From Golubevia sp. BC0850 (lineage: Eukaryota > Basidiomycota > Exobasidiomycetes > Golubeviales > Golubeviaceae), in contig JAAVVG010000013.1 in assembly GCA_012976225.1 (NCBI GenBank), positions 186,001-250,000 on the forward strand: DNA of 64,000 nucleotides, written 5' to 3'. Below are positions 4,367-38,027 of the stretch, piece by piece. Within the stretch, counting starts at the first letter, position 1. Each line of letters opens with the position of its first letter. The position numbers and the translations under genes were made by a program. The notes beneath the pieces are model-generated. The model saw only the letters and a list, made by a program, of their open reading frames with translations. It made no database searches and had not been told where the DNA came from.

Positions 4367-4561
4367 GGGAAAGGTTTTTCTTCTTCTTCTTCCCCATTCT
4401 CCATTCTCTCTTTCCCTCTCTCGTCCTCCCTTCCCCCCTTCTCTCCTTCTGTCCCGCCTTTTCTTCCTCTTCTCTCCTCTTCTGTCTTCCACCTCTCTAC
4501 ACAAACTCACTCTCTCTTATCTTTCACAGTCCCAAGTCCTGCTCTCCATCCGCTCTTCAAG

Positions 4562-5852
4562 ATGAAATTTGCCTTCGCCTCTCTTCTCTTCACTCCAGTC
4601 GTACTAGGAGCTATCCTGACCCCTCGTCAGACCGCCATCTCTGGAGACACTTCTTCCTACACCAGCGCCGCCAAATATGCTCAAGCAGCTTACTGCACAA
4701 AGGCGTCTGGAGGGACTGTCAATGGAGCCACCGTTTCTAAGGTCTTTGGAAATGGAGCCAGTGTTCCTTACGCTTACGTCGCTTACAATCCGACCTCAAA
4801 TCAAATCATCGTTTCTCATCAAGGGTGAGTTCCCCATTCTGACCCCTTCCTTCTAAGAACTGTAGCTGACTATCTCTTATTCCACCCATTCCAGAACTGA
4901 TCCAACCGAAATCGAAGCAGTTGCTGTCGACGCCGACCTTCGTTTGACTTCAGTCAACTCCCGCCTATCCTCTTGTGGATTCGCCTCTGGCTCGAAGGTC
5001 CACAACGGATTCCAAAATGCCTGGTCCTCTACTGCTGACGGAATTTTGGCTGAAGTCAACGTCCAACGCGCTGCTCACTCGTCAGCTCAGGTCCTCGTCA
5101 CTGGTCACTCGTGAGTCTAGAAGTTTCGTCCAATACTCGGCTTTCACTGACTGGAATTTTCCTTTGAACTCCCAAATCATCAGTCTCGGAGCTGCCATTG
5201 CTACCCTGGACATCGCTTGGCTTAAGTGCAAGGGGGTCTCTAACGTCAAAGGATTGACCTACGCCTCTCCAAGAGTCGGTAATGCCGCTTTCGCCAACTC
5301 CATCCCAAGCTTCAACAATGGTGAGTTCTTCTTTAGAGATTCAACTGTCTCACTTGGCTCTCGAAGACGACGTCGACCTCAATCTCACGCCACTTTTCAC
5401 TTCTGACAAAATCCAATTCGATAGTCATTAATGGAAGGGATATCGTTCCAGCTTTGCCCACACCAGTCAGTATGCAAGTTTCTGATTAGCTAGTCGACTT
5501 GATTCTCGTATCTGACTCTAAAACTACTCTGCTTCTCCCTTCTAAGGAATTCGGATACGCTCACAGCGCTGGCGAAGTCTGGATTAACCCAGCTAACGGA
5601 AATAAGTACTTCTCTTGCTCTGGAGTGAGTTCCCCTACTTCGGAAGCTCCTTTCCTCGTCTCTCTCTATCTCCCCAGTCTCCTCTATCCTTTCTGACCTC
5701 CCCTTTTCTTCGTCTCCCTCTCCCCTCCCCTCTTCTTTCCCCAGGCTGAGAACCCAAATTGCTCCAGAGGAGTCGCTGCTACCAACAAGAGCGTCGCCGA
5801 TCATCTAGGAGTCTATTTTGGAGTCAGAATCAATGGGTCTTTAGGATGTTAG
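4562..5852 (+). CDS. Secreted class 3 lipase, copy 1
   Basis: This is a secreted triacylglycerol lipase-type alpha/beta hydrolase (lipase class 3 family, related to Rhizomucor lipase). Six exons, 4562-4824, 4895-5110, 5184-5320, 5425-5465, 5547-5624 and 5745-5852, give 280 residues. A signal peptide (MKFAFASLLFTPVVLGA) is followed by a possible Kex2-like site (PRQ). The nucleophile elbow GHSLGAA has Ser160 split by the exon 2/3 junction. Asp211 (GRDIVPALP) and His265 (ADHLGVYFG) complete the expected triad, and FGYAHSAGEVWI is the usual conserved block. Exon 4 is only 41 nt. A paralog with two fewer introns lies at 24.1 kb. An HsbA-like gene follows directly on the same strand. Natural substrate is unknown. 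Confidence 0.93.
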
Positions 5853-35974: not shown

Positions 35975-36316
35975 ATGATGATTGAACGTAACTGTTTTGA
36001 CAACGAAACCGAGGCTTGTATCAATCTTGTGCGAGGGGTGATGTCCCTTGCTACTCGCCCCACTCCTCTCGAAGTCTCGAACCCAACATTCATTGACTCT
36101 TCTCTCTCTCCTGTCCTCCTGGATACTTGGATTGGAACAAGAAAACTACTCAATCGCCTACTCAAGCTCAAAGAACGCAACTCATCCATCCTCTGGGTTT
36201 CTTCATTCTCTTCAACTTCTTCAAACTCCAACACTCATCCATCCATCGTTCAAGTCTCTTCTGAGATCCGCGATTCTGCTAGCTTACCGTCTAGACCTTT
36301 AGTCACATTTGACTAG
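35975..36316 (+). CDS. Small unrecognised ORF, 113 residues
   Basis: The ORF starts at 35975, just after TATATA (35927), and ends 41 bp before the start of the RNase H-like gene. The product (MMIERNCFDNETEACINLV...) has no signal peptide, membrane segment or motif I recognise and is Ser/Thr-rich towards the end. It may be a real small gene, or an upstream ORF on the leader of the next gene. Codon use is not distinctive. Confidence 0.3.
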   Translation: MMIERNCFDNETEACINLVRGVMSLATRPTPLEVSNPTFIDSSLSPVLLDTWIGTRKLLNRLLKLKERNSSILWVSSFSSTSSNSNTHPSIVQVSSEIRDSASLPSRPLVTFD

Positions 36317-36357: not shown

Positions 36358-38027
36358 ATGGTCAATCAAACACCAAAGGGAAAGACGAATCCCAAGGTCA
36401 GTATCCTCTCTCTCTCTTTTTCTCTCTCTCCACTGCAGGATATAAAATCTCGGGAATTATTGCTCAAAGCACATCAGCAACGCTCCTAATTCGTCCTACT
36501 CAACATCTATATCCCTCACACTCAGAGAAAGAAACTATCCAATTCTTCGCAACTCAATCCTCTCCGGCGAACCAAAGTCGCAGTCCCAAGTAGAAATTCA
36601 TCAACTTGGAAAACTTCAGGAATCGGAACTGCAAGTAGCAACCATCCTCTTCTCTTCCAAAGAGCAGCCGCGAAGGCTCTCGAGTCAGTGACTGCTGCTC
36701 TTAACTCGTCGAGAATCACAGCCAGACTGCTTCGCAAAGTCCAAGTCAAGCTGTCTTTTCTAGTTGAGAAGCACGAAAGAGCCAGTCAGATCGGAATTCA
36801 ACCATTCAGTGATCATCTTAAAAAGATTGGAAAGGGATCTCGGCAAGCCATTCCTCTGCCACTAGAAGTTCGTCGTTCCCTAGAAGATTGGGGCTCTTTC
36901 CTCAGAAGTAATCCCTCAGTCCTTCATCAGAAAGCTCCCATTACTGAGAAGCATATTCTGTTGGGAGACTTCACTTGTGACGCTTCCTCGACGGGAGTTG
37001 GGATAGTCTATGATTCAGGTTCGTATTTTCTCTCCTCCTACTTTCTCCATCTGCCCAAAATCTATTTCTTCAACTAGGCCTTTCAAATTTGCTCCAAACG
37101 TTCACTGACATAACATCTCATGCCTTTCTCATTGCAGAGTACTATGGATTCTGGACGGTTCCTCCAGATGTCTGGCTCTCTATCGGAAGAAATATCGACG
37201 TTATGGAAATGATCGGAGTGGAGATGCTGGTCAGAGCAATCGTTTCGATGGGACAAAGAAATCTTGCTCTTTGCTGTACCTGTGATAACACCTCTGTCTG
37301 TGACATCTTGACGGGAGATCGTGTCCCAAGCGGCAGTCCCGTCCTCATGGCCTCTCTTCAACGTATTCGTGAGCTACTCTCTGCCAATTTCATCGAGCTG
37401 AACTGTACCTGGGTTCCAACAGAGGTGAGAACAAAAAGAAACAGTTGATTCGATTCTGAGAATCTTGCCGCACGCTCTCTAACATATCTCTCTTTTCTCG
37501 TCCTTCTTTCTCCTCAGAAAAATCTTGCGGACCACATCTCTCGTGGCAGAGAAACCAATCTCAAGAGACTACCAACATATCTGAGTCTTCAAGTTCCGAA
37601 TGGTCTGCTACAAGCTGGATTTCTGGGAAAAGAGGAAAGGAAGAAAAATCAGCTAGATAGGTTGAAGGAAATCAAGCTTCAAAGAGAGATGCAAGCCTCC
37701 AGATCGCCTTCCAGGGCAAGATATGGAGCTTTAGGTGGTGCTAAAAGAGGGGGTGTCTTGGAAAGGATTCAGAGAGGATTCTCGAACAGAAGTGGGGAAA
37801 AAGTCCTGGTCGACTTGACACTGGATTCTGACGACGAGCCGAGCAGACAGGGAAATGAGAGTCAGCCAGTCGACTTGACAGTTTCAGACGAAGAAGAAGA
37901 GAAATCTCGGAACTCTCGTGAAAAGGGGAAGGGAAAAGCAAAGGATTTGGGAAAGATTTCGAAGGGGGTGGTGGATTTAACGACTGAATCTCAAACCGAC
38001 GATGAAGTCGACCTTTTCTTAGCGTAA
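36358..38027 (+). CDS. RNase H-like protein with three C-terminal SUMO-interacting-type motifs
   Basis: Four exons (36358-36396, 36526-37018, 37138-37424, 37518-38027) close in frame to 442 residues. The basic N-terminus (KGKTNPKRKK) may be nuclear-targeting. Residues about 158-282 have the pattern of the retroelement-type RNase H domain seen in DIRS and Ty3-like elements. All four acidic positions are present: Asp165 (CDAS), Glu201 (DVMEMIG), Asp227 (CDNTS) and Asp278 (LADHISRG). No reverse transcriptase, recombinase or terminal repeat is seen next to it. The C-terminus carries VLVDLTLDSDDE (369-380), PVDLTVSDEEEE (390-401) and VVDLTTESQTDDE (424-436), each a hydrophobic core followed by acid, like SUMO-binding motifs. 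It looks like an intact host gene that adopted an element-derived domain. Function is unknown. Confidence 0.7.

Follow-up and report, generated by a model that had tools for sequence, protein, structure and literature searches.

A predicted fungal gene that joins an RNase H-like domain of retroelement type to a putative SUMO-binding tail

Does a gene that joins an RNase H-like domain of retroelement type to a tail of SUMO-binding-type motifs (SIMs) belong to the fungal host or to a mobile element, and what could its product do? This question is raised by positions 36358..38027 of the window, which is the whole 64-kb stretch of DNA that was analysed (bases 186001-250000 of contig C4, in an assembly of 25.77 Mb and 64 contigs). 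Judged from its genes and their short introns, this DNA is eukaryotic and probably fungal. A sequence-only reading had proposed a four-exon host gene at this place. Splicing reproduces a product of 442 residues from four exons and three GT-AG introns, with a single stop at the end and with the acidic residues and tail motifs where that reading had put them. The features are as follows.

36358..36396, + strand: exon 1, MVNQTPKGKTNPK; exon 1 and exon 2 together give the basic stretch PKRKK
36397..36525, + strand: intron 1, 129 nt, GTCAGT...CAG
36526..37018, + strand: exon 2, basic N-terminus, helical region and start of the RNase H-like domain with Asp165 (codon 36979-36981)
37019..37137, + strand: intron 2, 119 nt, missing at the matching site in a decayed copy and in a relative on contig C13
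37138..37424, + strand: exon 3, core of the RNase H-like domain with Glu201 (37206-37208) and Asp227 (37284-37286)
37425..37517, + strand: intron 3, 93 nt, missing at the matching site in the C13 relative; the region has no counterpart in the decayed copy
37518..38027, + strand: exon 4, one uninterrupted frame with the last helix of the RNase H-like domain, Asp278 (37530-37532), a basic linker, three SIM-type motifs and the stop
37809..37820, + strand: SIM-type motif 1, VDLT at residue 371, in KVLVDLTLDSDDE
37869..37880, + strand: SIM-type motif 2, VDLT at residue 391, in SQPVDLTVSDEEEE; its SQPVDLT is common to the decayed copy at 149 kb of contig C4 (G000:C4)
37971..37982, + strand: SIM-type motif 3, VDLT at residue 425, in GVVDLTTESQTDDE

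A branch-like motif begins 33 to 40 nt upstream of the end of each of the three introns. The annotated frame has the top coding score among the three forward frames in all four exons, a score that separates weakly (in exon 2 a reverse-strand frame stands at 0.137 vs 0.120 for the annotated one; a frame of intron 3 comes to 0.12). The 5' end and the start codon are predicted and less sure; an in-frame stop lies 36 bases ahead of the ATG that was chosen. A 113-codon frame (35975-36316, + strand) lies just upstream of the start codon in a different frame; it may represent an upstream frame, a small gene of its own or the first exon of this one. PKRKK is a basic stretch that resembles a nuclear-import signal. 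The join between Asp278 and the SIM-type motifs is independent of the splice prediction, because Asp278 and all three motifs are found in the single open frame of exon 4.

The RNase H-like domain and its predicted fold

Asp165, Glu201, Asp227 and Asp278, the four acids claimed for the domain, are all present in the spliced translation at RNase H positions. The spaced RNase H pattern appeared in 0 of 1,000,000 shuffles, a pattern that was composed with the sequence already known and is therefore not blind. The spacing of the acids is 36/26/51 in the window protein vs 42-43/27/43-44 in two resident Ty3-like elements. The domain ends in AD-x-[IL]-SR, and this ending together with the four-acid pattern is DIRS-like. 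In residues 55-150 a thumb and a connection like those of DIRS-type polymerases may be seen. The histidine by which many RNases H aid the release of product has no evident counterpart ahead of Asp278.

Family searches did not recognize this domain. No RNase H family was found in Pfam up to E 10 with the whole protein or with the domain alone, Pfam recognition being a detection aid and not a defining trait of the type 1 RNase H fold. When the PF00075 profile was run against the whole genome, also up to E 10, the window gene was absent from the matches. NCBIfam and PHROGs gave no meaningful match to the window protein, and the PDB sequence search returned one chance match (E 1.5) for the single sequence and none for a two-sequence profile. 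A canonical RNase H1 is encoded elsewhere in the genome (L025, G000:C64:770809-771279, PF00075 82.8 bits), and its N-terminus, read in an overlapping frame, is presumably hybrid-binding-like. This protein would share the RNase H fold class with the window protein; it matches PF00075, whereas none of the RNase H families recognized the window protein. The window gene is thus additional to the normal RNase H1 of the genome. Three further RNase H pieces have DWVPGHTDIEGNEKADQ in common (L027, G000:C24:934-1026; L029, G000:C10:5487-5576; L030, G000:C46:50719-50808). Two of the three lie within 6 kb of a contig start, and these pieces may come from a LINE family that has an RNase H of its own.

The fold was approached with a single-sequence AlphaFold2 model of residues 52-296 (mean pLDDT 43.5). 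The model contains a hairpin-like strand pair (171-175/178-182), a short third strand (191-193), a helix at 199-214 that holds Glu201 and is the first long helix of the domain, and a strand at 219-225 with Asp227 two residues further on. Its C-terminal part consists of a helix (245-260), a strand (264-270) and a last helix (273-282) holding Asp278. This order agrees with the RNase H topology, the first strand excepted. The first strand, with Asp165, was unformed both in this model and in a smaller one of residues 150-299, which was no better (mean pLDDT 43.5). In the Foldseek comparison with the PDB, ranks 1-7 of 1203 matches were chains of type 1 RNases H that belong to four different proteins (best E 6.8e-4; TM-scores on the query 0.24-0.29; rmsd 5.9-11.6), and one match of the 1203 had E <= 0.001. 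RNases H made up 13 of the best 50 of these 1203 matches, and from rank 8 on STAS-type and other unrelated folds appeared. In the viral library a putative RNase HI came first of 748 (E 2.0e-3; none below 0.001), and ranks 2 and 3 were other than RNases H. The proposed RNase H-like fold gains from the leading ranks of RNases H in the PDB comparison and loses from the pLDDT of 43.5 and the low TM-scores. Because the models are weak, the TM-scores low and the folds unrelated from rank 8, an RNase H fold of the window domain is likely but not firm.

Relatives in the genome, constraint and the host-gene question

Besides the gene itself, protein searches with the domain, the last of them run to E 10, gave at least two other places, a count that is a lower bound with scoring confined to the best candidates. 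A DNA search of the genome found no copy besides the gene itself. This search is informative on close copies alone, since a copy of 70% identity also went undetected.

That copy is decayed and lies 73 kb from the gene on the minus strand (G000:C4, about 149.4-149.6 kb; L017 about 4387-4617). Its alignment with the gene covers 119 nt at 70% identity and passes the intron 2 junction without a break, which shows that the copy has no intron 2. The copy has an in-frame TAG and has lost the middle of the domain, while the first two acids are kept. It resumes in another frame with SQPVDLTMDSDKE and so has an RNase H start and a SQPVDLT tail in the same order as the gene; the tail match scores 80 vs a maximum of 65 in 2000 shuffles. 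Since the decayed copy carries both parts, the join of the RNase H domain to the SUMO-type motif is older than the duplication, and the joined design looks real and old.

The second relative is found on contig C13 (G000:C13, 512341-512796, minus strand; 32-33% identity), inside an open frame of 219 codons. It keeps tryptophan and glycine residues of fold type and the acids matching E201 and D278, and S and G replace D165 and D227. It is without introns 2 and 3, and a VDLT tail was not found for it in the three frames read. The open frame itself extends over G000:C13 512338-512997 (L018 4839-5498, minus strand). Past its stop, from about 4830 to 4430 of L018, there are Glu/Lys/Arg-rich frames with a coiled-coil look.

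Two events would account for the absence of intron 2 from the decayed copy: the copy may have been made from a spliced transcript, as a retrocopy, or the window gene may have gained the intron later. The latter is quite possible because the C13 relative is intronless too, and the missing intron is therefore no proof of expression.

Protein-level constraint was assessed between the gene and the decayed copy. Over 50 codons, the last ten of which prolong the BLAST alignment gap-free, there were 10, 13 and 30 changes at codon positions 1, 2 and 3; pS was 0.828 and pN 0.212, and none of 2000 bootstraps brought pN up to pS. A dN/dS-type comparison over 40 codons of this one pair gave a pS of 0.839 and a pN of 0.150, with dS saturated, which indicates constraint. 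These values, from one short pair of 40-50 codons, are pointing to long protein-level constraint. A copy dead from birth would add many more amino-acid changes, and thus both the gene and the decayed copy probably worked as genes for a long time, as judged from this one short pair.

The C13 relative raises the main rival to an active nuclease, that of a non-catalytic adaptor. In such a protein, the RNase H fold would now do no more than bind nucleic acid or partner proteins, with the SIM tail as a bridge to SUMOylated complexes, while the acids persist through structure or slow decay. A non-catalytic role is possible for the gene family because this relative lost two acids; its frame has stayed open, with the fold residues and the equivalents of E201 and D278 in place. 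The canonical RNase H1 already present in the genome also favours an adaptor. However, the window gene has all four acids, and the first two are still present in the decayed copy; a protein that keeps four acids without catalysis is possible but is not the simplest reading. On balance, an adaptor is rather unlikely, although it survives better than the other rivals.

A further possibility is that the gene is the remnant of a non-autonomous or dying mobile element whose own polymerase bore the SIM tail. The domain is of a type that belongs with retroelements, and both the dispersed decayed copy without intron 2 and the C13 relative, intronless at both places, would suit such an origin. However, the surroundings of the gene showed neither a polymerase core nor an integrase or recombinase. 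The reverse transcriptase profile had at least 11 matches in the genome, read as Ty3-like elements, one LINE and several that are weak or broken, and none of them is on contig C4, in accordance with the earlier claim that no reverse transcriptase stands next to the gene. The tyrosine recombinase profile PF00589 had no genome match, and a diverged recombinase could escape this profile. Many dispersed copies, which the sequence-only reading had named as evidence against itself, were not found: there are the gene and at least two relatives, with no close copy in the DNA search, which also missed the 70% copy. Together with the three introns and the protein-level constraint, these findings make an element remnant improbable. 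Low copy number, introns, no adjoining element parts and constraint (one pair, 40-50 codons) are traits of domesticated genes that the window gene has. The proposed host gene with an element-type nuclease and SIMs is therefore upheld in its several exons, few copies and constraint, and is weakened by the C13 relative without two of the acids.

When five resident Ty3-like RNase H segments were compared by means of a two-sequence profile, which is a weak test, nothing matched within the window domain. No kinship to the resident Ty3-like elements emerged, with 16 aligned columns outside the RNase H core (P 0.17) and best BLAST E values of 5.1 for the window protein and 0.22 for the C13 relative. 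The assignment to a DIRS/Ty3-type RNase H has the four-acid motif pattern on its side and the missing match to the five resident segments, from that weak test, against it, and the window gene appears not to be a close member of any resident family seen. In the accessible part of a survey of 75 ascomycete and 16 basidiomycete species, no well-conserved DIRS1-like copies are reported (PMC3266345), and some Basidiomycota carry Ngaro elements according to excerpts of PMC3783388. Ortholog scans with two peptide patterns gave 17 fitting stretches in viral contigs and 50 in prokaryote contigs, none of them confirmed, these collections being poor places for a fungal gene.

The SIM-type tail

The three VDLT-plus-acid motifs proposed for the C-terminus are found at residues 371, 391 and 425. 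Their cores span 58 residues, with acids after each. In composition shuffles of the 160-residue tail, three VDLT occurred in 0 of 200,000 and two in 1 of 200,000. A looser SIM pattern has four matches in the tail, a number reached by 3 of 200,000 shuffles. The 64-kb window has 188 stop-to-stop frames of 80 aa or more (26,651 residues in all); [VI][DE]LT occurs three times in the frame of the window gene and in none of the remaining 187. In the accessible text of PMC12751080, a SIM is described as a loose motif in which acidic or phosphorylatable residues adjoin a hydrophobic core, and it is argued for RNF4 that clustered SIMs can favour poly-SUMO. The tail has this repeated hydrophobic core with neighbouring acids and looks like a putative SUMO-binding cluster of SIM type. 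That the gene is real and its VDLT-acid repeats serve another partner or form a degenerate charged tail is suggested by the looseness of SIMs and by a core with just V and L as classic hydrophobics, but is hardly probable given three acid-flanked copies in so short a tail, their absence from all other long frames and the retention of one motif with its context in the old duplicate.

A possible SUMO-recruited RNase H and its precedents

The best explanation, a tentative one, is that the window gene is a host gene of retroelement RNase H descent and encodes a SUMO-recruited RNase H. A retroelement, possibly DIRS/Ngaro-like, would have supplied the RNase H part of its polymerase, which was then adopted as a host gene that is presumably expressed. 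The basic N-terminus may allow nuclear entry, and the three clustered SIMs would hold the protein at multiply or poly-SUMOylated groups such as repair foci, stalled forks and RPA-coated R-loops. The RNase H domain would cut the RNA strand of RNA:DNA hybrids, with R-loops as the candidate substrate, by means of two metal ions held by D165, E201, D227 and D278.

Several known systems share a part of this design. DIRS/Ngaro and Ty3-type RNases H are similar to the window protein in the four-acid pattern, in the AD-x-[IL]-SR ending and, as far as the ranking of a weak model goes, in the general RNase H fold; in contrast to these elements, the window gene is without polymerase core, integrase and recombinase, and its acid spacing differs from that of the two Ty3-like elements. 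Excerpts of PMC8986097 describe Yen1 with an N-terminal XPG nuclease part and two functional C-terminal SIMs that serve recruitment. The window protein, known here from its sequence, has the same order of a putative N-terminal nuclease part and C-terminal SIM-type motifs and would likewise be recruited through SUMO, whereas Yen1 differs in its nuclease fold and in its substrate, which is Holliday junctions. NYNRIN/CGIN1 of mammals is a host gene with an RNase H domain taken from a retroelement, as stated in the available text of PMC9888277, and is thus a precedent for the proposed adoption of the window gene. According to the same text, which makes no mention of SIMs, NYNRIN/CGIN1 differs in that it also gained an integrase domain and retains a KHNYN-derived part.

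In yeast, RPA at R-loops is needed for the relocation of R-loops to nuclear pores, and the R-loop-dependent association with the pore drops when either of the SIM proteins Slx5 and Slx8 is lost; the RPA subunit Rfa1 is SUMOylated, as detected in a ulp1 mutant, and more so on heat shock (accessible parts of PMC10511428). These data, together with the recruitment of Yen1 by its SIMs, make SUMO-guided cutting of hybrids plausible. With a canonical RNase H1 already present in the genome, there is no obvious gap for a second RNase H.

The combination of domains had been called unfamiliar in the sequence-only reading. Among the matches listed in a search of openly accessible full texts, at the level of titles and abstract starts, no described protein had the RNase H and SIM pairing, and none among the matches listed in a search aimed at a SUMO-reading, hybrid-cutting enzyme was such an enzyme. 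Since recruitment of a nuclease by C-terminal SIMs is known from Yen1, the novelty would be confined to the pairing of SIMs with this RNase H.

The architecture is well supported. It is possible, though doubtful, that the adopted RNase H and its multi-SIM tail form a SUMO-guided enzyme that clears R-loops or the cDNA:RNA hybrids of invading elements at SUMO-marked chromatin, as a dedicated nuclease branch of the SUMO and R-loop response. With one domain, four acids and three motifs, the protein is compact and testable. If active, it would be a SUMO-reading enzyme with hybrids as its target, and a retroelement's own hybrid-degrading domain would have been turned to the care of the host genome.
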